IMG/VR virus record: IMGVR_UViG_3300037963_005655
Coordinates: 1-44,533 of that record
DNA: 44,533 nt
Reading direction: 5' to 3' (one strand)
Source: a virus
Every line of letters starts with the position of its first letter. Position 1 is the stretch's first letter. Under the pieces are notes generated by a model. It searched no databases. It was not told where the DNA came from and saw nothing but the letters and a program-made list of their open reading frames with translations. Positions 5,254 to 44,413 of this stretch are shown here, piece after piece. The position numbers and the translations under genes are program-made.

Positions 5254-6117
5254 TTAACCAATCATATCCATGGGTGGAAGTTCATAATCAGAAGACATTT
5301 TTTGTTTTATTTCATCCAGTTCTCTCTGACCATCTTCATAAATTGCTCTACCATTTAGTTCAACTCCACCTGGAAGTTTGACTCCTTGAAATTTAATTAA
5401 ATTTTGTCCCCACTGTTTTTTAATTGCTGCAGTAAGGTATCTTTTAACAAAACTATCATTATATACTTTTGAAAAATTTTCTGGATCCATTGCTCTATAA
5501 CATTCAATCACCAAGAAATTATTTACTTCTTGTGCATTCCAGTCAATATCAAGATATAATCTATTTTGTCTTTGATTAAATCTAACTTGTTTATCGGTTG
5601 TCAAGAGAAAATCTATATCTTCCAAATATGATTTGGTCATTCTATATGTCAATAAATCAACAGAATTGAAGAAATATAAATCATTTAAAAACAACTGATA
5701 CTTGATACTGAACATTCCGCCAGAAATAGAACTAGTATCAAACTTAAATATTTTTTCTATACCAATTACAGAATCTGGAACTTGAATAAAATTCGATGTC
5801 TCATAAAAGTTTGATGTAACTGTTCCAAAACCTGATATATTAGTTGATGTTCCTGTGGTAGTGACAATTCCAACACCAGTAGTAGTAATACCGGCAGATG
5901 AAGTTCCACCTCTTCCACGATCAATATCATCTTGACTAATTTGATATTTCAAATATGTTTTCTCTACACCATCAAAATGCCTTTCATTGAAAAATTGAAT
6001 AGTATCGTCAAGTAAATCATCAACCTGTTCATCTGCAACATTAATTTCAAGAACAGGTGCTCCTAATTGTCTTAAACAATAATCTTTTAATTCTTGCTTA
6101 GTAGTTGGTTTTGCCAT
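5254..6117 (-). CDS. 13: Neck protein (T4 gp13-like)
   Basis: The product is 287 residues, against 309 in T4. With gp14 the family forms the neck complex that completes the DNA-filled head so that tails can attach. Family features are the N-terminal KPTTKQELKDYCLRQLGAPV, the DDLLDDTIQFFNERHFDGVE stretch (about 31-50), and the C-terminal part with AMDPENFSKVYNDSFVKRYL and KLPGGVELNGRAIYEDG. A short Thr/Gly/Ile-rich insert near residues 75-105 (GGTSSAGITTTGVGIVTTTG) looks like the low-complexity sequence seen elsewhere in this operon. The start shares one base with the stop of the 414-residue repeat gene upstream, and the stop is 5 bases before gp14. Confidence 0.93.
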   Translation of the reverse strand: MAKPTTKQELKDYCLRQLGAPVLEINVADEQVDDLLDDTIQFFNERHFDGVEKTYLKYQISQDDIDRGRGGTSSAGITTTGVGIVTTTGTSTNISGFGTVTSNFYETSNFIQVPDSVIGIEKIFKFDTSSISGGMFSIKYQLFLNDLYFFNSVDLLTYRMTKSYLEDIDFLLTTDKQVRFNQRQNRLYLDIDWNAQEVNNFLVIECYRAMDPENFSKVYNDSFVKRYLTAAIKKQWGQNLIKFQGVKLPGGVELNGRAIYEDGQRELDEIKQKMSSDYELPPMDMIG

Positions 6118-7361
6118 CAGAATGAACCTCCGTCAATAAGTCCTGCAGTGAGTGTTCCTGCAACAAATACATCATTAGAAAACGTTGCAATACCAACAAA
6201 TGTTGATAGTCCAGCAACGTGTAAGTCTCTAGAAAGTGTCAAGTCTCCACCAGCAGTTAGTGTAGATGCGGCACCAGGAAAACCTGCCTCAAGACCACTT
6301 CTAGCAGTAATTAGTCCAATGGCATCAACATTGGTTACATCTTCATACGTAAGTGTTCCCGCAATGGAAACATTGTTTGCAAATGATGCATTACCTACAA
6401 ATGTGGAAACACCAGATACATTTAGATGATTGAGTTGAGTCTGATCTTCTACATCTAAATTGGAATTAGCATCAATAGTAAGAAATGTGGCAATACCAGA
6501 AACATTTACGTCATCTAATTCAGTTTGACCATCTACATCTAAGTCACCTTTAGCATCAATAATTCCAATAAAAGTTGATACTCCAGCAATTCTGAGATTA
6601 TTTTCAACATTAAGTTGACTTCCGTCAAAAGTTAAGTTAGCATCATCTTCAAGTTCACCACCTGTTCCGGCAATAACAATTCTATCGTTTGTTAAATCCT
6701 CTACTTTAAGTGTGTTTGCTTGTGCTCCGGAATTAATATCGAGAAGACCTGATGTGGTGGTGACACCTGATACATTCAAATCATCCAACTCAGTATGACC
6801 ATCAACATCTAAATTTCCACTTAGAGTTGCATTTCTTGCTGTTATTTCATCTAATACTATATCATCTTCAATATAAAGATCTCCTCCGATATAGAGATCT
6901 CCTCCAGTGGTTGTAATTCCACCAGATGATGCTAAAGTTGTAATACCAACAGATTTAAATGAACCGTTTACATCCAAACCATTTAGGATGTCAACCGCAG
7001 CATTAATATCAAGGTTTGATGCAAAAGTAGAAACTCCAGCAACTGTAATACCTTCACCAATATTTACTTTCTTTGCTACTCCAATTCCACCATTAACAAT
7101 TAAAGCACCATTTGCTGATGTTGTGGAATTTTGAGTGTTTGAAAATGTAACAATACCACTAATATTCAAGGATGACGAATCAATCGTATCCGTCATGTAG
7201 AATGATTCTGTTGTAAGATCCCATACAAGGATCATTCCATCTCTAGTTTTTAGAGTGGAGTCAACATCACTTAAATTGACCAATCTTGTTGGCGGTGCTG
7301 AAGCATTAGATAGTACACGGATTACGTTCTGAGAACCAATCCTGTCGTTGATATTAGGCAT
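6117..7361 (-). CDS. Repeat-rich fibre-like virion protein
   Basis: The product is 414 residues. The short N-terminal domain (to about residue 60) is followed by many imperfect beta repeats of the type LDVDGQTELDDVNVSGIATF (for example LDVDGHTELDDLNVSGVTTT, LDVEDQTQLNHLNVSGVSTF). The C-terminus ends in AGTLTAGLIDGGSF. Such repeats usually make trimeric beta-helical or fibrous shafts. The gene sits where T4 has gp11, gp12 and wac, between baseplate genes and gp13, so a short fibre, whisker or fibre connector is a reasonable guess, but I see no gp12 receptor-binding tip or fibritin coiled coil. The ATG shares a base with the stop of the gene upstream, so both should be on one late transcript. 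Confidence 0.85.
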   Translation of the reverse strand: MPNINDRIGSQNVIRVLSNASAPPTRLVNLSDVDSTLKTRDGMILVWDLTTESFYMTDTIDSSSLNISGIVTFSNTQNSTTSANGALIVNGGIGVAKKVNIGEGITVAGVSTFASNLDINAAVDILNGLDVNGSFKSVGITTLASSGGITTTGGDLYIGGDLYIEDDIVLDEITARNATLSGNLDVDGHTELDDLNVSGVTTTSGLLDINSGAQANTLKVEDLTNDRIVIAGTGGELEDDANLTFDGSQLNVENNLRIAGVSTFIGIIDAKGDLDVDGQTELDDVNVSGIATFLTIDANSNLDVEDQTQLNHLNVSGVSTFVGNASFANNVSIAGTLTYEDVTNVDAIGLITARSGLEAGFPGAASTLTAGGDLTLSRDLHVAGLSTFVGIATFSNDVFVAGTLTAGLIDGGSF

Positions 7362-7696
7362 TACTTGGTTACCCCTGCTCTTACTAATGCTGCTCCCTCA
7401 ACAGCTTTATACGATTTCCCTTGAACTATAAGTTTTACATCAAAAACATGCCTTCCGGGAGTTAAATTTGAAGTTTGTGAGGAGGTTAAAGAAATAGAAA
7501 TAATACCTTGTTCTGGACTTGTAATAGACGATCCAAAAGCAATAGAAGAGTTTGCACCATAATGTTTTCTTATTTCTCCAGTAGCTCCATATCCAGTCAA
7601 ATTCATGAGGGAATTTGTTCTAGTATCTTCTAATTGAAATGACGTGTCGAAGTCATATCCCTGCTCAATCACAATATTAGATACATAAACGGCCAT
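7361..7696 (-). CDS. Small beta-rich virion protein, function unknown
   Basis: The product is 111 residues, beginning MAVYVSNIVIEQGYDFDTSF. The pattern (short strands, LMNLTGYGATGEIRKHY, then GIISISLTSSQTSNLTPGRH, then FDVKLIVQGKSYKAVEGAAL) resembles the small immunoglobulin-like or BppU-N-like domains that join phage fibres to baseplates. This is a judgement by eye, not a firm family match. A perfect late promoter octamer lies 29 bases upstream of its ATG, so this gene starts a late transcription unit that would run through the 414-residue repeat protein and gp13-gp16. It overlaps the next gene by one base. Confidence 0.8.
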   Translation of the reverse strand: MAVYVSNIVIEQGYDFDTSFQLEDTRTNSLMNLTGYGATGEIRKHYGANSSIAFGSSITSPEQGIISISLTSSQTSNLTPGRHVFDVKLIVQGKSYKAVEGAALVRAGVTK

Positions 7697-7724
7697 TATT
7701 TTGTGATTCTAATATATCTCTAGC

Positions 7725-7732
7725 TATTTATA
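7725..7732 (-). promoter_or_regulatory. T4-type late promoter (TATAAATA)
   Basis: The minus strand reads GATTATAAATAGC, an exact match to the T4 late promoter octamer recognised by the phage sigma factor gp55 and sliding clamp. It lies 29 bases upstream of ATG 7696 and just past the stop of the 64-residue gene, in one of the few real intergenic gaps of the operon. Confidence 0.75.
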
Positions 7733-7737
7733 ATCAG

Positions 7738-7932
7738 TTACTTATTCAAAATTTCATGAAGTAAAGATTTTATCTCATTAATATCTTTTTTCATTTCATC
7801 CAATTCTTTTTTACGTAAATCTTTTTGTGTAATAGAATTGACATATTGATTATATCCGGTGATATCACAGTTTACGATAGCACCGGTATTTTCATCTCTG
7901 TATAGATTGGAGTGTCCTTCTACTTTTATCAT
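7738..7932 (-). CDS. Small coiled-coil protein, unknown function
   Basis: The product is 64 residues. The N-terminal half (MIKVEGHSNLYRDENTGAIV) looks beta-rich. The C-terminal half is a strongly charged heptad-like helix (DLRKKELDEMKKDINEIKSL). Its ATGA overlaps the TGA stop of the 2489-residue gene upstream by 4 bases, a typical translational coupling. I recall similar short proteins at this place in other cyanophages but do not know a function. An oligomerising adaptor or assembly factor would fit the coiled coil. Confidence 0.75.
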   Translation of the reverse strand: MIKVEGHSNLYRDENTGAIVNCDITGYNQYVNSITQKDLRKKELDEMKKDINEIKSLLHEILNK

Positions 7933-10900
7933 CTGAGAGCAATAATTCTAAGATCTGCAAATCTAGGTGCTTGTGATTGATTAGAACTAGACATTACGAT
8001 TTTAATTCCATATCCAGTAAATAAATCCAAATTGTCAACCGTAAATTCATATTCTAAAAATTCACCATCCAAACTTTCTCTAACCTTTCTATCTGGTAAT
8101 CCACTGTTTTTGGATGGATCAACAACTAAGAAACCTTCAGTTGTTTGTTTGAGATTATCATATCCTGGGAATAAGTCATATGATTGTTCAATTTCACTAG
8201 AATCTGCTTTTACTGTTGTATAGAGAAGTCTAAAGTCGGCATCTCCAGGTCTTTCTGCAGAAATAATAACTTTAAGTCCAGATGCTGGATTTTGAAGAGT
8301 TGTAATGTTTGAATAATATACTGACGAATGTGGATCATCAACAATAGAGTTGACACGATTATCATTAGGATAATCAGTGATTGGTTTATTTAATCTGTTG
8401 ATATTAAGTATAGAACCTGCTTGATCTAAATTCAATATTGGAGAAAGTGCATTGTTTGGATCATTTGAAGTAAATGTAATGGCAGTTGTAAATGATTTAT
8501 TTCTTGGTAAAGATGTCAAATATTCATTTTGATTTACTTCTGAAGCAACCATTCTTAAAGAAGATAATGAATTCATTGAATTTAATTGAACATCTTCATA
8601 TCCATTATCATTAAATGAAACTTCTTGTCCATCTACACTGGTTGCGGTTGTCGTTCTAACCTTTGCTGTTGCAAAAGTAGTTGATCCTGGAGTAGTTATA
8701 TCATATGATGGATTGATTGAATTAAATACCAAGTTTTCAGAAGCAGTAACAGAGTCTCCTCCAATTAATTTTTCATCATTAAAGGATAATTGTGGGTAAT
8801 TTTTTGTTGGAGATATAGATCCATCGGAGGATCTATCTATTCCTTTAGTATTTGATCTATCAATTTTAACATAGTAACTATCAATGTCAATTGGAACATC
8901 ATTAGAACTGGATGCATCTGGAGAAATTGCAGTGTTAATTCCACTAATTCTTCTTAAAGAAACTCCACCAAATTCATATTTTTCAACAACACTATTTACT
9001 GAGTGATTAATTGCAATTGTTCCATCAATACCTCTTCCATTTGAATTTATAGTCAATGTGTTTCCACTTGCATTATTATATGCAATAATTTCACCTCCAA
9101 TTTTTACATATCCAAGATTAGTTCCATCGACAGTTTGTCCCTCAAAAGTTGTAAAATCTGCTGTAGAACCTACATTTATAGATGAAGTTTCTCCGACAGT
9201 AAGTTCCGAATTTAATACTGTTGCTGGAACATCTGATTTGATGTTATCAATAACTAATTTATTGGTTCTTGAATACATTCCATGATTGAAATGATCTACT
9301 TTAAAGTAATTCCCAGAATAAATTCCACCATCAGCAGTAGAAGATATAATTGTAGTTCCTGCAACAGAAACAATTGTGGTGGGATCACTATAATAACTAA
9401 CTGCTGCCCCCACAGAAAATTCACGATTAGTACCACTACCACCAAATTCACCCTGAACATTAGTGAGATATAAAGTATCAACACCATGAACGGCAGCAAT
9501 TGTTATCCTCGCATCTCTACCTGTTTCTGTTGATGTCGATGAAGTTACAATTCCAACTACATCTCCAACTTGATATCCTGAACCATAATCTGGATGGAAT
9601 GCTGAATGTGCAACTCCAGTAATCACTCCATTTGAATTTGTAGTAATACGAAGTTTAAGTCCCTCACCTTTACCTGAATAATTAAATGTACTTACCACTA
9701 CGTTAGATGCACTTGCTGGATAATTCTGTCCAGCTTCAGTCAATGTTGTAGCATCACTGACAGAACTTCCTTGTCCAACAATAATAGCTGAACCATCATT
9801 ATTGAAACCTCCAGCAAGTTTTCTGCCAACACCTAAAGTTGTAATCATATGAGCTGCAGTATTTGGATCCACTGTATCAATACCAATTCTTCCTGTTTTT
9901 GGAAGAACTGTAATAGGATTATTAATTAATTTTGAAACATAATCATTACTCTGATCTAGAGGTGGATTATAGAAATAAGCAGTTCCAGAACTTTGTGTGA
10001 ATTCTGCTTTATAAAGTTTAAATTTCAGATCTTGGTTCTGATCAGTTGACCAAATAGATCCATTTTGAGACTTGAATAGAGATCCAAGAGCAAACTGTTT
10101 AGTATAAATGACTTGATCAACATCAGGAAGTTGCTGTGTGTTAACAGTTTTATCTCCCATAACAGCCGTCCACACTTCATATTCATCACTTTGATCTGAT
10201 ATTAAAACTATTGCATACTCTCTACCAGGTGCCAAGAAAATTGGTTCTGGGAATCTAACATTTGTAGCAATTTCTCCAGTATTTGATGTTTGAATCAGTT
10301 GTGTTTCAACACCATTAACACTGCCTCTTGGTCTAAGAGTCACTGGTTTTCCAATAGTTGTAAGTGTTGGTGTTCCCAACTGAGTTTCTCTCACTTCTAC
10401 TCTTATTGGTGCATTACCACTATCAATTCTGGCAAAAAATACATCTACAGATGTTAAAAATACTCCATTCACGTCGTCATCAGTATCAATATCAGATTTG
10501 ACTTGAATATTTCCACCAACAGTAAATGTTTGTGCTAGAGGATCGGTATATTCAACATTAACAGATCTTGTCAGATTAAAGTTTGTAGTACTTGAAATAT
10601 CTGTTCTTGTGGTTTCTCTTGTAACTGTTGCTTGGAATCTCAAAACAGTCCCATTTGCAGTATAGGATGTTTCTGCAAAAGAAATTTCATTGCTTCCAGG
10701 TAATCCTTTATCATTTGTGGAACTAGACGTTAATTTATAAGTTTTTGTTCCTGCACGCAATCTAACACTTGGTGTTGGATTTGCATGTGGAGGTCTGATA
10801 AAGAATGATCCATTAAGATCTCCAAAATTATCCGAAATTAATCTAATATTCTTTACAGAAGCAATAGCATTACTAGTTTGTCCAACTAATTGCATACCAG

Positions 10901-16996: not shown

Positions 16997-17004
16997 TATT
17001 TATA
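16997..17004 (-). promoter_or_regulatory. T4-type late promoter (TATAAATA) for gp8
   Basis: The minus strand reads GATATAAATATCT, a perfect octamer 18 bases upstream of ATG 16979 and directly after the stop of the gp7-like gene. It gives gp8 and the 2489-residue gene a supply of transcript that does not depend on crossing the 12-kb gene upstream. Confidence 0.75.
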
Positions 17005-31708: not shown

Positions 31709-31716
31709 TATTTATA
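31709..31716 (-). promoter_or_regulatory. T4-type late promoter (TATAAATA) for gp25-gp6-gp7
   Basis: The minus strand reads GGTATAAATAAAG, a perfect octamer 23 bases upstream of ATG 31686. It lies between the stop of the 62-residue gene and gp25, and is the probable start of the main baseplate transcript. Confidence 0.75.
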
Positions 31717-31917: not shown

Positions 31918-32394
31918 TTATTTACATTTATTATTTATTTCTTGTTTTATAATATTATAATCTTCTTCAAGAACTTCTTTTAGATAATTTTCATCATAAT
32001 TATCATAATAATTTGTTTTTGCAAGTTTTTTTCTTGCTTCTAAAAGGTCTTTTCTTGGTTGAGCAAGAACTAAATTATATTTTCCGTTATTTGACTGGAC
32101 ACTATTAATAAAAGTGCCTTCATTTTTGGCATCAGAAAGAAATTTATAGTCCAAATATTGTAAATTGTAGTTATCCACTGCATTATAGAGAAAATCACTA
32201 TCATGATGATCTTCTACAATGTAAATTACAACATCATAATCGGGAATTGGAACAATTTTATCCAAATTCCTCTCTAAAATTAGAAAATTAGCAGTAGAGG
32301 CAAAGGGACATAGTGAAAAATTCCCTAATTCTGGTCTAATTTTAGATAAATTGCGGATCCATTTCCGAACATGCTTAATTTTCTTGTCTCTCAT
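31918..32394 (-). CDS. Hypothetical protein with a CPFA motif
   Basis: From ATG 32394 the product is 158 residues, MRDKKIKHVRKWIRNLSKIR onward. The frame extends further upstream to 32451, but that part lies inside the upstream gene, and the stretch after the internal ATG is the part that looks like a protein. The segment LSKIRPELGNFSLCPFASTA recalls the LCPFA motif of the bacterial DUF1415 family, and the C-terminal NYYDNYDENYLKEVLEEDYN is typical of small phage proteins. The link to DUF1415 is a suggestion only. It overlaps the 3' end of the upstream gene by 20 bases. Confidence 0.75.
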   Translation of the reverse strand: MRDKKIKHVRKWIRNLSKIRPELGNFSLCPFASTANFLILERNLDKIVPIPDYDVVIYIVEDHHDSDFLYNAVDNYNLQYLDYKFLSDAKNEGTFINSVQSNNGKYNLVLAQPRKDLLEARKKLAKTNYYDNYDENYLKEVLEEDYNIIKQEINNKCK

Positions 32395-33031
32395 CGGGTG
32401 TTGTCCAGAAATAATCATCACAATCACCCAATCTACCCCAATTAACATCATTTTCAGTTTGAAAGATGCGAGTTGACACCTTAAAGTCAGGTGTTTTGAC
32501 CGGATCAGGGGTCATAGAGGTATCATAGATGCGACATCTATTGTTTGGATATAAACAAAACTGTCCATTTCTTAATTCAATTAAATTAAATGACTTATGT
32601 TCATCGGGCAATTCACTTGTCGATGCATCAATCTGGTCAAAATCCCCATGATAGTTGTCTAATGTACATATATAATTTCCTTTGATATTACCGAAGTGCC
32701 TTGTTCTTACTTCCCATTCCATTGGAGCAACAAATTGCTTTAAGATTACAGTGAAATCATAATCCATACAATTCCAAAACTGAAGATTGACTAGATCCAT
32801 ATCAGGATCCGGTTTCTTTGGTTTTGATACAAATGCGGATATAGGCAGTTTATCAAACATAGCACCATATTCGGGTAGATAAGTTTCAAAGTAGAAGGCA
32901 CGACCCTGAATAGACTTAGCAGATACCCATATACCTTCAACAAATTCTCCGTGACCATCCTTAAAATCACGAAGATATTCTTTTCTAACCCATACCTTTT
33001 TAGTTGGTAGGTTTGCAATTAATTTTGCCAT
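32375..33031 (-). CDS. Conserved hypothetical protein, 218 residues
   Basis: The product begins MAKLIANLPTKKVWVRKEYL and is rich in aromatic residues. It contains VEGIWVSAKSIQGRAFYFET (about 31-50), LPISAFVSKP, NLQFWNCMDYDFTVILKQF (about 82-100), CLYPNNRCRIYDTSMTPDP (about 160-178) and VNWGRLGDCDDYFW near the C-terminus. No signal peptide or membrane segment is visible. I recall similar proteins in many T4-like cyanophages but cannot name a function. Its start lies inside the 3' end of the GNAT-like gene (13-base overlap), and its end overlaps the next gene, so the three are probably cotranscribed and translationally coupled. Confidence 0.8.
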   Translation of the reverse strand: MAKLIANLPTKKVWVRKEYLRDFKDGHGEFVEGIWVSAKSIQGRAFYFETYLPEYGAMFDKLPISAFVSKPKKPDPDMDLVNLQFWNCMDYDFTVILKQFVAPMEWEVRTRHFGNIKGNYICTLDNYHGDFDQIDASTSELPDEHKSFNLIELRNGQFCLYPNNRCRIYDTSMTPDPVKTPDFKVSTRIFQTENDVNWGRLGDCDDYFWTTPDERQEN

Positions 33032-38605: not shown

Positions 38606-38758
38606 CTAGTATACTTCTGCAGGTTCTTTGATGCTAACATCGACGTTCTCGTCACCTTGTAGATCTAGGATTTCTCGCCAATCCATCATCTTGAGGTCGA
38701 GGTCTTCATAACATTCGATGTCTAATGTTACACTTACAATGCGTTTACGTGCATACAT
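38606..38758 (-). CDS. Small acidic hypothetical protein, 50 residues
   Basis: From ATG 38758: MYARKRIVSVTLDIECYEDL, DLKMMDWREILDLQGDENVD, VSIKEPAEVY. A basic start, then two strands around ECYEDLDLKMMDWREILDLQGDE. The ARKRIVSVTLDIECYxDL...DWRxxLxLxGDE pattern is one I recall from other cyanophages. The frame stays open up to 38824, but a TATAAT promoter box at 38783-38788 makes ATG 38758 the likely start with a leader of about 18 bases. Function unknown. Confidence 0.8.
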   Translation of the reverse strand: MYARKRIVSVTLDIECYEDLDLKMMDWREILDLQGDENVDVSIKEPAEVY

Positions 38759-38782
38759 GGGAATCTCGTGCGATGTGTGTGT

Positions 38783-38788
38783 ATTATA
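38783..38788 (-). promoter_or_regulatory. Sigma-70-type -10 box
   Basis: Minus strand GCTATAATACAC, a perfect TATAAT 25 bases upstream of ATG 38758. The -35 candidate at 17-base spacing, TGTGCA, matches TTGACA at only 3 of 6 positions. Probable early promoter of the 50-codon gene. Confidence 0.6.
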
Positions 38789-38841
38789 GCATAGATTATG
38801 ATATGTGCACATCTCGCAATGCACACATATCTCGTATATGA

Positions 38842-39362: not shown

Positions 39363-39632
39363 CTACCATTTTCCTATAGGACACTGACTCACACCGAACT
39401 TAACCTTGGCACCCAGATAACAACCACACTGTCTACATCTATTCTGTCTTACACTATAATAATCACACTTCTTACATACATTCATTCTCTCTTTCTGTTT
39501 CTCTTCTGATACTAGTAATCCTGTCTCATTAGATGAAGATATATCAATAACATTCTTTACTACTTCAAATGTAAACTTTGCAAGATTCTTTCCCTGTTCA
39601 TCAATAGAAGGAAAGTTTTCTTCTTCTTTCAT
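39363..39632 (-). CDS. Zinc-ribbon protein (paralogue 2)
   Basis: From ATG 39632 the product is 89 residues, MKEEENFPSIDEQGKNLAKF onward. Start chosen because GGAGG lies 5-6 bases upstream (minus strand GGGAGGATAACAATG); the frame extends 8 codons into the upstream gene. The C-terminal half is a four-Cys ribbon, NVCKKCDYYSVRQNRCRQCG followed by CYLGAKVKFG and CPIGKW (Cys 53, 56, 66, 69, plus 71 and 84). The same pattern is in the 110-residue protein at 40203. The motif resembles short phage zinc ribbons often placed beside 2OG oxygenases; I think of DUF6171 but am not sure of the number. It is the last gene of the fibre/oxygenase cassette. Confidence 0.85.
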   Translation of the reverse strand: MKEEENFPSIDEQGKNLAKFTFEVVKNVIDISSSNETGLLVSEEKQKERMNVCKKCDYYSVRQNRCRQCGCYLGAKVKFGVSQCPIGKW

Positions 39633-39634
39633 TG

Positions 39635-40240
39635 TTATCCTCCCAAGTAATACCATCCTGTTACAACATACTTATTACCCTCTAATACCATTCCTCCTCT
39701 ATGTGTATGTGTATATCCGGCAGGCCATAATAACAATTTACCTTTCTCTGGTTGTTCTCTCCTCTTGTAATATAAGAACTCTGTTTCTCCTCCTTTAAAG
39801 TCATCATTCAAATAGACCATCCATACCATAATTCTCCCACAATGTTCTAGACTAGAATTTTCATCGTGCCATACATGATAACCACCACCGGCAGGAGTCT
39901 TCTGTACTTTCTGAACAATAGAATACATAGGCACATCTTTTAATGTTCCAAATACCTGATGATATTCATTCAGACATTCCTGCATTGGTTCATATAGTCT
40001 GGGTAATGGATCTTCATCTAATGATGGACCCATTGAATGTAAATCAAATGCCCAATCGAATCTACCCGCATTGGAATTAGAAAACTGAGTATCTTCACAA
40101 TAGACATCATTGATCGATTGATAATAATCAAACGTTCTTATAATCTCATCACAGAACTCATCAGAATAGATGTTAGAATATGATCCTATGAATTGTGAAT
40201 ACTCACCCTTCAGTTTCGTGCTTTCGTATGATGTGTTCAT
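39635..40240 (-). CDS. 2OG-Fe(II) oxygenase (third copy)
   Basis: The product is 201 residues. GGGYHVWHDENSSLEHCGRI (118-137) provides the iron site (His125-x-Glu127), MVWMVYLNDDFKGGETEFLY (138-157) is the core strand pair, and LLWPAGYTHTHRGGMVLEGN (160-179) supplies the second His (168 or 170), followed by KYVVTGW whose Lys180 stands where the 2-oxoglutarate-binding Arg/Lys is expected. The family hydroxylates proteins, nucleic acids or small molecules. The ATG lies 38 bases inside the upstream zinc-ribbon gene and has no clear Shine-Dalgarno sequence, so coupling is likely. Confidence 0.9.
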   Translation of the reverse strand: MNTSYESTKLKGEYSQFIGSYSNIYSDEFCDEIIRTFDYYQSINDVYCEDTQFSNSNAGRFDWAFDLHSMGPSLDEDPLPRLYEPMQECLNEYHQVFGTLKDVPMYSIVQKVQKTPAGGGYHVWHDENSSLEHCGRIMVWMVYLNDDFKGGETEFLYYKRREQPEKGKLLLWPAGYTHTHRGGMVLEGNKYVVTGWYYLGG

Positions 40241-40535
40241 AATCAGGATACTTCTCTATAATAGTTTCTTTAAGTCGTTGATAATGTGAGTTCTTCCATT
40301 CTTCATCATTTGATATCCACTTATCCAATGGACAATCGCCCCAGGGATCTTTTATCTTATGTGGTAGATAACATCCACAATACTTACATCCTTCTTCGAC
40401 TTCATCAAAGTGCTCACATGATTGGCACAATTCCCATCGTTCTTTTTGACAGTTCTTAGATGAATCAAATGGACCATGAACTTCCTGAAGGAAGAACTCA
40501 TCCATGAATTTGAATATAAGATCACTGAACTCCAT
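40203..40535 (-). CDS. Zinc-ribbon protein (paralogue 1)
   Basis: The product is 110 residues. After a helical N-terminus (MEFSDLIFKFMDEFFLQEVH) the ribbon reads RWELCQSCEHFDEVEEGCKY then CGCYLPHKIKD and CPLDKW (Cys 37, 40, 50, 53, 55, 68), the same layout and ending as paralogue 2. A C-terminal charged helix (NDEEWKNSHYQRLKETIIEK) is extra. It lies 18 bases after the fibre gene and overlaps the oxygenase downstream by 38 bases. Zinc binding is certain enough from the spacing; the partner is unknown. Confidence 0.85.
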   Translation of the reverse strand: MEFSDLIFKFMDEFFLQEVHGPFDSSKNCQKERWELCQSCEHFDEVEEGCKYCGCYLPHKIKDPWGDCPLDKWISNDEEWKNSHYQRLKETIIEKYPDYEHIIRKHETEG

Positions 40536-40553
40536 TATATCATAGATTCTGTT

Positions 40554-42074
40554 TTATATATTTGTGATTGAACCTTTTACGGTGCTACTGGTGGAATAAT
40601 TTATTTTTGCATTCTTTTTATGAATCGCACGTCCAGATTTACCACTTGAATCCTGTCCGAAGTCTCCTCCAGAATTGCCGGGATTTCCTTTATTACCCGT
40701 TGAACTATTACCATTACCGGCACAATTAGTTGTATTACCATTATTACCACTATTGCCCTTATGTGGTGATGCATTAATGGAAGTATTAAGATTAGAAAAT
40801 CCTCTTCCTACACCACCGTTTCCACCATTTCCGGGATCACCTCCGGTTACATCATTATCTGTTCGAGTACGACAATAATAAGTATATCCGTTTCCACAAT
40901 CATATCCCTTCATTGTATTAAAATTCCATGGAGAACTACCTCTTCTGACTCCTCCTCCTCTACAACGATTTCTCACTCCGTTTGGATTCTTTCCATATAA
41001 TGTTGCATTACCACATCCATTATCACTGGTGAAGGTACTTGTATTAAAACAATTTAAACTTTCACCTCTATTACCACTATTTCCGGCACTTCCTCCTCCA
41101 CCACCAGCCCAGATTTTACCAAAAGATCTAATCTTTACATCACTTTTACCATAAGTATTGTTCACATATAATGCATCTCCACCATCTCCTCCAATCGTAC
41201 CGGTTCCGGTAACATTGACAAAGAAACTTCTGGCATATGTTGCCTGTCTTCCGGCACCCTGACTGTTTGTCATGTCAAATGCCACCTTAAACCTTGTACT
41301 GGTGATTGTCTGTGGATAACCAGTCGAAAGTGCAATCGAATTGTCTGATGCAATTAAACCACTGGATCTGATGGTTGGATCAACAGAACTTACCACTAAA
41401 TTTACACCACTCATACTATTAACATCAATAAAATATCCGATACTACCAACCGGATGTCCTTCGGTTCCTGTTACTCCATCATTATATCGTGTGATGGTAA
41501 TAGATCCACCCTCAAAAGTTCCTACGTTAATTGCACTTTCAATATCACTAATATTGATCGTTTGATTGATCGCAACCGTTCCTCCTCCTACAATTCCTCC
41601 CTCACCATAAATTGCACCGTTCTCATCAACCTCAATCTCTAGGTTATATAAATTACCATAAAATTTTAGTGCATCATCCGCAGGATTGTCGGCATGAACA
41701 ACACCGGTTACATCAAATGTCTTCGGTACATTCTTCGATAAATTACTATTCCAGGTCGAAGTATCATTATCACTATAACTTAATTCCGTATTTGTCGAAC
41801 TCTGTGTCACCAAATAATTACTGATCGTGTCCCTTAATGAATCAACGGACCAATTATTATCAGTCGCAACACTTGTGTTCTCGGTTGCATCCGGCACTCT
41901 GGATGTAATCTTACTCTCATCATTCCAGTCCACCGCAGCATCATCATTCCTTAAATATGTGCTTGCTTTGATATTAGTCGCACTACCACCAAACTCCGAT
42001 CTTATTTGTGAAAAAGAAATAGGATTACCCGCACCACCGGTAAAGTGTGAGGTCTTTGTAATGTTGACTGCCAT
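40554..42074 (-). CDS. Tail-fibre-like adhesin with glycine-rich tip
   Basis: The product is 506 residues. The N-terminus (SHFTGGAGNPISFSQIRSEF, about 8-27) is a motif I know from cyanophage fibre proteins. A beta-rich middle contains GSIGYFIDVNSMSGVNLVVS. From about residue 290 the chain becomes Gly-rich (GTGTIGGDGGDALYV, SFGKIWAGGGGGSAGNSGNR), with several Cys (FNTSTFTSDNGCGNATLYG, GYDCGNGYTYYCR) and collagen-like turns GGDPGNGGNGG and NKGNPGNSGG. Gly-rich loops of this kind form the receptor-binding tips of T-even type adhesins (gp38/S16-like), so host recognition is the likely role. It lies between 2OG-Fe(II) oxygenase genes. Confidence 0.87.
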   Translation of the reverse strand: MAVNITKTSHFTGGAGNPISFSQIRSEFGGSATNIKASTYLRNDDAAVDWNDESKITSRVPDATENTSVATDNNWSVDSLRDTISNYLVTQSSTNTELSYSDNDTSTWNSNLSKNVPKTFDVTGVVHADNPADDALKFYGNLYNLEIEVDENGAIYGEGGIVGGGTVAINQTINISDIESAINVGTFEGGSITITRYNDGVTGTEGHPVGSIGYFIDVNSMSGVNLVVSSVDPTIRSSGLIASDNSIALSTGYPQTITSTRFKVAFDMTNSQGAGRQATYARSFFVNVTGTGTIGGDGGDALYVNNTYGKSDVKIRSFGKIWAGGGGGSAGNSGNRGESLNCFNTSTFTSDNGCGNATLYGKNPNGVRNRCRGGGVRRGSSPWNFNTMKGYDCGNGYTYYCRTRTDNDVTGGDPGNGGNGGVGRGFSNLNTSINASPHKGNSGNNGNTTNCAGNGNSSTGNKGNPGNSGGDFGQDSSGKSGRAIHKKNAKINYSTSSTVKGSITNI

Positions 42075-42093
42075 TATTATGACGCTTTTTTGT

Positions 42094-42101
42094 TATTTAT
42101 T
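42094..42101 (-). promoter_or_regulatory. Near-consensus late promoter (AATAAATA)
   Basis: Minus strand GAATAAATAAC, one mismatch to TATAAATA, 20 bases upstream of the fibre ATG at 42074. It overlaps the stop codon of the oxygenase gene upstream. A separate late start for a fibre gene would make sense, but one mismatch in AT-rich DNA is weak evidence. Confidence 0.4.
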
Positions 42102-42606
42102 CATAAGAAGTGTCATTATACTGATATTTGATTGCAATCGTAAATCGATGACCATTCCTGAATGATGTGGCACGATGTGGTATCATTCCATCGAACATAA
42201 CCAATCGATTAGGTATGGCAGGAACACCTAAAATGTTTCCATCAATATAAAACTGTGTCTCTCCACCATTCTGTAAATCCCACTCCATATTGGCATAATA
42301 TAAAAATGTAATACCTCTTCCATCTTTGTGAAAGTATGGATTCTCACCCGGTGCAAAACAATTCACATACATTCGATAGAATGACATGTGCTTAATCATC
42401 GGTTCTTTTTCTTTCAACCGTTTCTTTAACATTCCAAAAAAATCTTCCTTTGCCCGAATTTCATTAATCATTCCTGTCGGTGGAAGATTATCATCATCTC
42501 TTTCACCATATCGATACTCTGTATCCATACAATATTGATTAATTTCCAAAAATTCTTCAGGACTCAGGAAGTTATCCTCATATTTAATTTTTCCATTCAG
42601 TTCCAT
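42097..42606 (-). CDS. 2OG-Fe(II) oxygenase, prolyl-4-hydroxylase-like (second copy)
   Basis: The product is 169 residues. NPYFHKDGRGITFLYYANME (89-108) gives the HxD of the iron site (His93, Asp95), NGGETQFYI (113-121) is the typical strand after it, VMFDGMIPHRATSFRNG (136-152) carries the second His (144), and HRFTIAIKYQY (153-163) the 2-oxoglutarate Arg (154). This is a complete and probably active site. The start overlaps the upstream oxygenase by 23 bases. It precedes the fibre gene by 22 bases. Confidence 0.92.
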   Translation of the reverse strand: MELNGKIKYEDNFLSPEEFLEINQYCMDTEYRYGERDDDNLPPTGMINEIRAKEDFFGMLKKRLKEKEPMIKHMSFYRMYVNCFAPGENPYFHKDGRGITFLYYANMEWDLQNGGETQFYIDGNILGVPAIPNRLVMFDGMIPHRATSFRNGHRFTIAIKYQYNDTSYE

Positions 42607-43225
42607 AAGATGTTAGACTCAGATTAAATGCGACTGTAATACGTGGATTATTTGGTGTTGATTTTGATTTTTCTACATGATGCACCAAATATGATGGAAA
42701 TATCAATAAATCACCTTCCTTAACTTTTGGGGTCCATCGATCAGCATAATAATTAGAATCCATCTCAAATGAATGTGCTCTTAATGTTGCAATCGGATCA
42801 TGAAATGTTGTCGAAGTATGTTCTTCTTCATCATATTTTAGATAGTGAATACATGAGTATTGCACTGGTGCTATGAATGGTGATGGTGAAATGTGATGAT
42901 GTTCTTCTTGATATTCTCCATCTATGTAGTAATTGAACCAAATATCCTCCAGTGAAAAACCAACTTCTCTGTCAAATACTGATCGCACAGACTTGGCATA
43001 AATCTTATGCACTTTTTCGGACTCAAATATTTTATGATTTAATTCATCATGATCGAAAGATGTGATCAGATTATCTGTTAACCAACCATCAGGAATGGGT
43101 AAATCCTTTTCCTCATAACATTTTTGAATATTAGATAACAATTCTCTCTGAATAACAGAGTTCTCTCTGATATTGGTATGGTATAAGGTTACAGGAAATA
43201 GTGTTCTTTTATAATGATTTCTCAT
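42584..43225 (-). CDS. 2OG-Fe(II) oxygenase (first copy)
   Basis: The product is 213 residues. DIWFNYYIDGEYQEEHHHIS (94-113) holds the first iron His (109-111 region), PVQYSCIHYLKYDEEEHTST follows, and KEGDLLIFPSYLVHHVEKSK (169-188) contains the second His (182), with PRITVAFNLSL (194-204) supplying Arg195 for 2-oxoglutarate. The layout is that of the phage 2OG-FeII_Oxy_5 type family, distinct from the next gene. It is joined to the 95-codon gene upstream by an ATGA overlap and overlaps the next oxygenase by 23 bases. Confidence 0.9.
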   Translation of the reverse strand: MRNHYKRTLFPVTLYHTNIRENSVIQRELLSNIQKCYEEKDLPIPDGWLTDNLITSFDHDELNHKIFESEKVHKIYAKSVRSVFDREVGFSLEDIWFNYYIDGEYQEEHHHISPSPFIAPVQYSCIHYLKYDEEEHTSTTFHDPIATLRAHSFEMDSNYYADRWTPKVKEGDLLIFPSYLVHHVEKSKSTPNNPRITVAFNLSLTSYGTEWKN

Positions 43226-43509
43226 TGCGAATCCAAGTATCTTCCCTCCTGTGATTTATATCCATCAGTATTATTATCTCTACGATTCTTGATATACTCT
43301 AATTCATTCCACTGAAATGATTGACAGCACACTAAAATATGAATCTTCTTGTGCTTCTCTTCTTTGGTATATTGGCACTTGGGTTTATCTTTGACACCAA
43401 CTTCTATACTGATGGTTTCATCACACTTGAAATATACCCATCCCTCATCAACTGAACCGTTTTTACGTGTCCATCTCACATAATCATCAACTTGTGGAAC
43501 ATACTTCAT
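43222..43509 (-). CDS. Hypothetical protein, SH3-like N-terminal part
   Basis: The product is 95 residues. KYVPQVDDYVRWTRKNGSVD then EGWVYFKCDETISIEVGVKD reads as a small beta barrel (the YVRW....EGWV pattern is typical of SH3/Tudor-like folds), followed by KPKCQYTKEEKHKKIHILVC and a charged tail. ATGA overlaps join it to its neighbours on both sides. I recall similar cyanophage proteins, without function. Confidence 0.8.
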   Translation of the reverse strand: MKYVPQVDDYVRWTRKNGSVDEGWVYFKCDETISIEVGVKDKPKCQYTKEEKHKKIHILVCCQSFQWNELEYIKNRRDNNTDGYKSQEGRYLDSQ

Positions 43510-43799
43510 ACAAATGCCAGTTCTATGGGAGTGAGTTTAAGTTGCATTGCAGTATAAGGAGTTGTATTATTTACATCTACTTGATCTCCTTGCTTGGTGG
43601 AGTTAATAGGGGCGTAGTAGCATCCTTTTTTTGTATTGTAGAATCCCCATATGCACCAAATGTCATTAGCATTATTGTAAACAAACCCAGGATTGCGTAC
43701 AGTCCAGATTGAAATAGTAGAAACATTCTTACGAATGAGTCTGTATCTGTATCCTCTTGGTGGTTTGTGGGGGAAGTCAGGGGGGAGTTCATGAATCAC
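43506..43799 (-). CDS. Hypothetical protein starting at GTG
   Basis: The product is 97 residues, with GTG (43797-43799) as the start: its GTGA overlaps the TGA stop of the 54-codon gene, the normal coupling in this operon. Sequence contains ELPPDFPHKPPRGYRYRLIR and SIWTVRNPGFVYNNANDIWC, then IWGFYNTKKGCYYAPINSTK and ends in TPIELAFV. Tyr/Trp-rich, beta-like, no membrane segment. A second frame (43577-43792) over the same DNA gives a hydrophobic but unfamiliar peptide and is rejected. Function unknown. Confidence 0.75.
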   Translation of the reverse strand: MIHELPPDFPHKPPRGYRYRLIRKNVSTISIWTVRNPGFVYNNANDIWCIWGFYNTKKGCYYAPINSTKQGDQVDVNNTTPYTAMQLKLTPIELAFV

Positions 43800-43960
43800 T
43801 TTTCTCTTACAACACGAACACGTTCGGGTGATGCACCACGGGAATACAAGTATTCAAGTAGTTCTTTTGCACGTTCTTTTGTCAAATTTTGATACTCTGG
43901 ACCTGGCAATGACCAACCAGTTGTCAGTTCTTCTTGAATTTGATACCGTTCTTCGTTCAT
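43796..43960 (-). CDS. Small hypothetical protein, 54 residues
   Basis: Sequence MNEERYQIQEELTTGWSLPG, PEYQNLTKERAKELLEYLYS, RGASPERVRVVREK. The LTKERAKELLEYLYSRGASPERVRVVR part is a plain helix-strand unit of the type seen in many short phage proteins that modify or bind host partners; function unknown. Starts 4 bases after the stop of the 76-codon gene and overlaps the next by GTGA. Confidence 0.8.
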   Translation of the reverse strand: MNEERYQIQEELTTGWSLPGPEYQNLTKERAKELLEYLYSRGASPERVRVVREK

Positions 43961-43964
43961 TGAT

Positions 43965-44195
43965 TTAAGTGCAGAATGCGTCTATTATACCAGATTCGTG
44001 TTCGTCCGCCAACTTAAGTTTGGTAGACTTCACAATCTGTTCCATGATCAGATGACCATAATCTTCAGGGAATGATTCTTCATCTGATAAAAGTTCAAAT
44101 GCTTCTTGATCATTTTCGGCAATTAATGTAATCAGTCCACCATATTCTGATGTAGGAAATGGCACCCAATAATCAAGAATGTAGAGATTTTTCAT
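43965..44195 (-). CDS. Small acidic hypothetical protein, 76 residues
   Basis: Sequence MKNLYILDYWVPFPTSEYGG, LITLIAENDQEAFELLSDEE, SFPEDYGHLIMEQIVKSTKL, ending KLADEHESGIIDAFCT. The YILDYWVPFPTSEYGGLxxxIAENDxEAFELL plan (strand, strand, helix) looks like a small alpha-beta domain and I recall it from cyanophages. The ATG shares its first base with the stop of the gene upstream. Confidence 0.8.
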   Translation of the reverse strand: MKNLYILDYWVPFPTSEYGGLITLIAENDQEAFELLSDEESFPEDYGHLIMEQIVKSTKLKLADEHESGIIDAFCT

Positions 44196-44413
44196 TACTC
44201 TTTTTGATCTTCCTGTGTAATTTTATCAGATTTAGATAGATTAGTCAACTGACGTTCTAACTCATATTGAATGGGTGAGAGATGATTGTAAAGATAATTT
44301 TTCCACTCATTATCTTCTAACAAAAGAGTGATGTTATTAACTTGCTGAAGTGCCATCATCAATCTAAATTTTTCTTTTTCTTCGGGTGTTTCTGAATACT
44401 TTTCACCATACAT
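44195..44413 (-). CDS. Small helical hypothetical protein, 72 residues
   Basis: Sequence MYGEKYSETPEEKEKFRLMM, ALQQVNNITLLLEDNEWKNY, LYNHLSPIQYELERQLTNLS, ending KSDKITQEDQKE. Almost all helix (EKEKFRLMMALQQVNNITLLL; LYNHLSPIQYELERQLTNL). Joined by one-base overlap to both neighbours (TAATG upstream). Function unknown; I recall related cyanophage proteins. Confidence 0.8.
   Translation of the reverse strand: MYGEKYSETPEEKEKFRLMMALQQVNNITLLLEDNEWKNYLYNHLSPIQYELERQLTNLSKSDKITQEDQKE

Follow-up and report, generated by a model that had tools for sequence, protein, structure and literature searches.

A cyanophage gene cassette that may serve oxidative tailoring of the phage's own gp38-like adhesin

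A six-gene cassette on IMG/VR virus record IMGVR_UViG_3300037963_005655, a marine T4-like cyanophage, encodes a glycine-rich fibre adhesin together with three putative 2-oxoglutarate (2OG)-Fe(II) oxygenases and two small zinc ribbon proteins, and is best explained, with a probability of roughly 0.6, as dedicated to oxidative tailoring of the phage's own adhesin. The window analysed is the whole 44.5-kb record (44,533 nucleotides), in which the cassette occupies positions 39363-43225 of the minus strand. A first-pass annotation of this DNA had proposed that phage enzymes modify their own fibre at Gly-X-Pro turns; recurrence, co-exchange, re-association, and purifying selection together lend good support to the general idea, but the Gly-X-Pro mechanism did not hold. 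The cassette genes in transcription order, and the candidate target within the adhesin, are as follows.

42584..43225, minus strand: OG1 (213 amino acids), putative PF13759-type 2OG-Fe(II) oxygenase (HxH...H...R); 46.1 bits against a cut-off of 27
42097..42606, minus strand: OG2 (169 amino acids), predicted 2OG-Fe(II) oxygenase PF13640 (HxD...H...R); 29.1 bits against a cut-off of 27; phrog_274
40554..42074, minus strand: predicted gp38-like polyglycine adhesin (fibre tip), 506 amino acids; AlphaFold and Foldseek
40934..40972, minus strand: apical loop motif RNRCRGGGVRRGS, candidate target, about residues 368-380 of the adhesin
40203..40535, minus strand: ZNRa (110 amino acids), zinc ribbon paired with the adhesin; phrog_13558, expect value (E) 1e-11; DUF6171, 19 bits, under the cut-off of 27
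39635..40240, minus strand: OG3 (201 amino acids), 2OG-Fe(II) oxygenase PF13640 resembling prolyl 4-hydroxylases (HxE...H...K); 41.9 bits against a cut-off of 27
39363..39656, minus strand: ZNRb (97 amino acids), DUF6171 (PF19668) zinc ribbon paired with OG3; 34.5 bits against a cut-off of 27

Open reading frames (ORFs) were checked against Pfam at curated cut-offs and against PHROGs profiles, and independent scans of IMG/VR started from the adhesin, from the ribbon, and from each of the oxygenases. The order, place, and strand initially given to the six genes are borne out: all six ORFs are present, and the order OG1-OG2-adhesin-ZNR-OG3-ZNR, where ZNR is a zinc ribbon gene, is found in dozens of metagenomic cyanophage contigs. 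Adjacent genes share 22 to 38 bases, with two exceptions: the fibre gene is separated from ZNRa by 18 bases and from OG2 by 22. The closest relatives of OG2 adjoin the adhesin family of the window at 37 of 54 dereplicated loci and lie near another glycine-rich ORF at four more. The full cassette was not found in the cultured-phage collection, where the adhesin matched partially and weakly and OG2 only below 60% identity, and a nucleotide search of cultured phages returned weak single-gene matches only. In this analysis the full cassette is therefore known from metagenomic contigs alone.

The slot that holds the cassette is framed in other contigs by homologues of the small window genes at 43222-44413 and 38606-38824, and contains the full cassette at 23 loci, a partial cassette at six, and an adhesin and ZNR without oxygenase at 20. 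Judged by these loci, oxygenases are gained and lost in the slot together with the adhesin type. Other orders also occur, namely ADH-ZNR-OG1-OG2 (L230 and L247) and ADH-ZNR-OG1 (L021, L022, and L043), with ADH denoting the adhesin gene. Ratios of non-synonymous to synonymous change (pN/pS) between the window and three relatives run from 0.07-0.14 in OG3 to 0.33-0.43 in the adhesin, with 0.15-0.38 in OG1 and OG2 and 0.19-0.27 in the ribbons. By this measure all cassette genes are under purifying selection, with the adhesin the fastest-changing member, and the low ratios mark the enzymes as functional genes.

The adhesin comprises an N-terminal domain (residues 1-165), an inserted domain (about residues 165-290), and a glycine-rich tip (residues 295-506). 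The AlphaFold model of the tip has a predicted local distance difference test (pLDDT) score of about 88, and confidence is lowest at residues 371-380 (the RCRGGG region), in keeping with an exposed loop. A Foldseek comparison with viral models (BFVD) returned a Gp38-domain protein (E 1.6e-9), and comparison with the PDB gave weak matches to gp38 of PP01 (9v85_C, probability 0.95, template modelling (TM) score 0.52 by target, E 0.08) and of S16 (6f45, E 1.6). No Pfam family matches the adhesin even at E 10, and so it is labelled gp38-like rather than a member of the gp38 family; the evidence for its gp38-like fold is moderate. An alignment of 20-21 adhesins shows glycine-rich motifs alternating with hypervariable loops, as in gp38, the tips of which are built from polyglycine II helix lattices with receptor-binding loops between the glycine-rich motifs (PMC6851490, PMC12892980). 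Given the Foldseek matches and this known architecture, polyglycine helices are the best interpretation of the glycine-rich runs of the window adhesin, and a large apical loop that of the Cys/Arg-rich stretch at about residues 340-410, and the collagen-like Gly-X-Y character first assigned to the fibre is not borne out. The inserted domain is absent from the other adhesins of the family and matches the virion protein SXBG_00069 of S-CAM1 (44% identity over 98 amino acids), suggesting a domain that is mobile between cyanophage tail proteins.

Within the apical loop, R368, R370, and R372 are invariant in 20 cassette adhesins and C371 is nearly so. The corresponding motif, RxRCR, is present in 42 of 53 cassette tips, defined as those of distinct adhesins with at least two adjoining oxygenases and no halogenase, compared with none of 23 tips in a halogenase context and two of 36 tips without an enzyme; in the two tips without oxygenase it sits at a different place in the tip loop. 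The Asn content of full-cassette tips is also high, at 13% versus 8%. The apical loop is the likelier target of modification, because its Arg/Cys-rich RxRCR is the conserved feature of the tip.

A second, unrelated class of tailoring enzyme occupies an equivalent place beside the adhesin. At 26 of 112 adhesin loci a flavin-dependent halogenase lies nearby with no 2OG gene, mostly directly upstream of the adhesin, and in S-SRM01 (L001, 6396-7853) such a halogenase directly precedes a related adhesin in the order halogenase-adhesin-ZNR. The halogenase beside the adhesin family retains the GxGxxG and WxWxIP motifs and shows homology to PrnA, RebH, and VirX1 (E 9e-44 to VirX1). Trp makes up 2.5% of the tips beside a halogenase and 0.9% of those without an enzyme (p 6e-5 against all others, a value uncorrected for phylogeny; independent pairs on the adhesin tree are too few for a corrected test), and Cys is also higher in the tips beside a halogenase.

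Loci fetched by the oxygenases contain a second adhesin family, A2, made up of glycine-rich proteins of 300-360 amino acids with an N-terminus unmatched by the profile of the first family; its association with oxygenases is given by the construction of the scan, and many of its loci are close relatives. In the model of one A2 protein the sole PDB fold matches are gp38 structures (E 3e-8 to 1e-6), which argues strongly for a gp38-like fold of the family. The genes are arranged as A2-x-OG1-OG2-halogenase(-OG1) or A2-OG3-...-OG1-OG2, and Trp is present in the apical loop of 11/11 A2 proteins with a halogenase (typically RRCGWWC...RRRR) versus 4/11 without one.

Similar neighbourhoods occur in isolate genomes. 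In syn9 (L170, 6482-9587), P-TIM40 (L174, 4533-7629), and Sf-FP1 (L503, 6422-7978), halogenases of the PrnA/VirX1 type come after glycine-rich fibre genes, in syn9 directly so, and precede a run of 2OG-type genes; the near relationship of syn9 to Syn10, the home of VirX1, suggests that the halogenase of Syn10 is likewise next to fibre genes. The 2OG/halogenase islands by the fibre genes also hold JmjC_2 (PF08007) genes in syn9 (L170, 13114-13824) and Sf-FP1 (L503, 11167-11862), a family that includes bacterial arginine hydroxylases acting on ribosomal proteins. In S-SSM7, a further gp38-like protein with RRCRGWFC adjoins 2OG genes. A whole-genome shift test across 11 isolate genomes places 6 of 14 halogenases near glycine-rich ORFs, where 1.5 are expected (p 0.0045), and 19 2OG genes within 6 kb of halogenases, where 8.7 are expected (p 0.017).

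The first-pass annotation held that all three oxygenases keep their iron and 2OG residues, which stands for OG2 and OG3, with HxD/E; OG1 has an atypical HxH. The complete catalytic sites are H93, D95, H144, and R154 of OG2, invariant in its relatives, and H125, E127, H178, and K190 of OG3, invariant in 17. By profile, the nearest PDB entries are distant prolyl 4-hydroxylases for OG3 (5c5t, E 9e-4; 3itq, E 0.005) and a distant prolyl hydroxylase for OG2 (6t8m, E 1e-4), and the nearest solved structures to OG1 are two uncharacterised proteins. DNA repair by AlkB-type dioxygenases was rejected as a function, with no PF13532/AlkB family among the Pfam matches up to E 1. PHROGs and many phage records call members of phrog_274 'DNA endonuclease V' (window 42097-42606; L002, 15762-16274; L170, 14415-14933), a name that looks wrong because both the sequence and the catalytic residues identify a 2OG oxygenase.

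The zinc ribbons share C61, C64, C74, C77, C79, C92, and W97, invariant in six aligned ribbons. ZNRb is above the DUF6171 family cut-off and ZNRa carries the same CxxC...CxxCGC...CPxxxW pattern; each ribbon lineage here tracks one partner, either the adhesin or OG3. At 93 of 108 loci, whether oxygenases are present or not, the gene that immediately follows the adhesin is a ZNR, and in loci fetched by the adhesin alone it is next in 65 of 78, ribbons making up 77 of the 1456 ORFs there. A distinct ribbon lineage adjoins OG3, including in blocks with no adhesin beside them, and the ribbon tree requires 17 changes of partner label, against 63 after shuffling. We infer from this that the adhesin and OG3 have one dedicated small ribbon partner each. 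The adaptor role first proposed for the ribbons is thus at best half right: the separate lineage with OG3 agrees with it, but adhesin-ZNR pairs without oxygenase rule out the ribbon solely as an oxygenase adaptor. Fusions of a ribbon to an oxygenase or an adhesin, which would show contact, were not found. At a further set of loci (L107-L111, about 5471-8315), another glycine-rich protein of about 830 amino acids is directly followed by a zinc ribbon, with no oxygenases.

Several observations weigh against a dedicated tailoring cassette. The iron site of OG1 is atypical by its residues, since HxH...H...R (H109, H111, H182, and R195) is kept in all 17 relatives. Full-cassette adhesins form one clade on the tree of the N-terminal domain, which points to a single origin of the full cassette rather than many; tip composition and RxRCR are therefore not independent tests, the enrichment of RxRCR or of Asn/Arg is weakened as independent proof of the target, and the motif serves as a lead to the target and not as a test. 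ZNR-OG3(-OG1) blocks also occur without a neighbouring adhesin (L003, 7992-9503; L005, 7995-9404; L131-L167), and in S-SSM7 and Sf-FS3 the ZNR-OG3-OG1 blocks adjoin thioredoxin-like, Phd-like antitoxin, and nucleotide-sugar genes. In the shift test, 10 of 140 2OG genes lie within 3 kb of glycine-rich ORFs against 14 expected (p 0.8), and the proposition that all cyanophage 2OG genes cluster at fibres is rejected. Any claim of adhesin tailoring is therefore confined to the subset of 2OG enzymes found at adhesins, and most cyanophage 2OG enzymes have another role or act from elsewhere in the genome.

The model that best accommodates these results is a self-contained adhesin maturation cassette. 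The gp38-like polyglycine adhesin would cap the tail fibre and bind the host via its apical loops, and OG1, OG2, and OG3, depending on O2, Fe, and 2OG, would hydroxylate or otherwise oxidise adhesin side chains. The apical loop, rich in Arg, Cys, and Asn, would be a more likely site of modification than Gly-X-Pro turns. ZNRa would serve the adhesin as its small zinc ribbon partner in assembly or folding, and ZNRb would pair with OG3. The adhesin as substrate, the identity of the modified residues, and the action of the ribbons are putative. Related phages have an enzyme of the tryptophan-halogenase type in the equivalent place beside the adhesin, or no enzyme at all, so the tailoring chemistry appears to be exchangeable, and it would tune receptor binding. 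A wider proposal, to which we give a little under an even chance, is that T4-like cyanophages put non-standard residues (hydroxylated Arg/Asn/Lys and halogenated Trp) into gp38-like receptor-binding loops by means of exchangeable adhesin-specific enzymes, and that this is the natural role of VirX1-type halogenases and of one subset of 2OG enzymes.

Three other explanations were weighed. The strongest of them, although unlikely, is that the oxygenases act elsewhere, on host envelope sugars or proteins, metabolites, or the 2OG pool, and that the fibre region is a hot spot for exchanged host-range and accessory genes. Each genome carries many 2OG genes, mostly away from glycine-rich ORFs, ZNR-OG3-OG1 blocks lie beside nucleotide-sugar genes, and published proposals assign cyanophage 2OG genes to DNA repair or 2OG/NtcA modulation and prnA to antibiotic protection (PMC3037559, PMC2984593). 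Against this stand the fixed immediate adjacency and the co-exchange with adhesin type in one slot, the re-association in other orders and with a second gp38-like family, and the presence of the halogenase, an unrelated class of enzyme, in the equivalent place beside the adhesin. It is improbable that the oxygenase-fold proteins and ribbons catalyse little or nothing and act as chaperones of the Cys/Gly-rich tip; adhesin and zinc ribbon stay paired where enzymes are absent, the HxH site of OG1 is atypical, and T4 gp38 is a fibre chaperone (PMC12892980), but OG2 and OG3 have complete catalytic sites, and same-family adhesins exist without any oxygenase, so the oxygenases are not needed for folding in general. 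Least probable of all is that the oxygenases hydroxylate Pro in Gly-X-Pro-Gly turns and so stabilise the fibre, which is rejected as a conserved function: among solved structures OG3 and OG2 are closest to prolyl hydroxylases, the window tip contains GDPG and GNPG, and cassette tips carry GNPG somewhat more often than other tips do, but the idea leads one to expect Gly-X-Pro in every partner adhesin, and in a test set beforehand GxPG is missing from 22 of the 53 distinct cassette tips and PG altogether from 15, Pro is lower in tips in an oxygenase context (2.2% versus 3.2-3.4%), the adhesin alignment shows no conservation of the window's GxPG columns, and structure comparison points to a polyglycine sandwich instead of the triple helix of collagen.

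Elsewhere in the record, the minus strand encodes the terminase small subunit, tail sheath stabiliser, neck proteins (Hc2 and Ad2), and baseplate proteins. One further feature lies ahead of the adhesin gene.

42094-42101, minus strand: late-promoter-like AATAAATA, 20 bases upstream of the fibre ATG, a position that fits a T4-type late promoter

Because this sequence stands 20 bases ahead of the fibre start, the fibre gene, ZNRa, OG3, and ZNRb could form a single late transcript; matches to the late-promoter-like motif are no more frequent in the window than by chance. TATAAATA is found on the minus strand at window positions 7725-7732, 16997-17004, and 31709-31716, 18-29 bases upstream of the starts of three structural-region genes, a placement expected of T4-type late promoters. 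Between the baseplate genes and a group of small genes, positions 32375-33031 match phrog_3704, annotated as ferredoxin and possibly a phage-borne electron donor.

Several known systems resemble parts of the cassette. T2-type gp38 (S16, PDB 6F45; PP01, PDB 9V85) shares the glycine-rich motifs and variable loops at the tail-fibre tip as well as a fold match, strong for A2 and moderate for the window adhesin, but the window adhesin is about half as glycine-dense and has a larger, Cys-rich apical loop, a different N-terminal domain, and no Pfam match. The window adhesin and its relatives are, moreover, accompanied by oxygenases or a halogenase, plus zinc ribbons, none of which is known to accompany gp38 of enteric phages. 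Prolyl 4-hydroxylases, including vCPH of PBCV-1 (5C5T) and the anthrax enzyme (3ITQ), are nearest in the PDB to OG3 and OG2, and OG3 retains the 2OG-binding Lys; OG3 differs in having HxE in place of HxD, and its putative substrate next door is no Gly-X-Pro collagen. VirX1 of cyanophage Syn10 and the tryptophan halogenases PrnA and RebH are represented by the homologue that adjoins the window adhesin family at its 26 loci, and in syn9 the halogenases stand between glycine-rich fibre genes and 2OG genes; the window, however, has no such halogenase, and VirX1 has been described as acting on small aromatic compounds (PMC8407142). The collagen lysyl hydroxylase/glycosyltransferase of Mimivirus is likewise a virus-encoded 2OG hydroxylase for the virus's own fibre protein (PMC9546862), but belongs to a eukaryotic virus with true collagen repeats and hydroxylysine glycosylation, and with no zinc ribbon or halogenase. 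Literature searches on phage fibre hydroxylation and halogenation, within the collection of papers covered, found no link of 2OG enzymes or halogenases to fibre modification.

The comparative evidence suggests a concrete substrate for cyanophage 2OG oxygenases and halogenases, namely the adhesin, which determines the cell to be infected. If adhesin tailoring is correct, these phages would extend the chemistry of receptor-binding loops past the standard set of twenty amino acids, tailoring genes could influence host range alongside the adhesin sequence, and heterologously expressed adhesins would miss the relevant modification.

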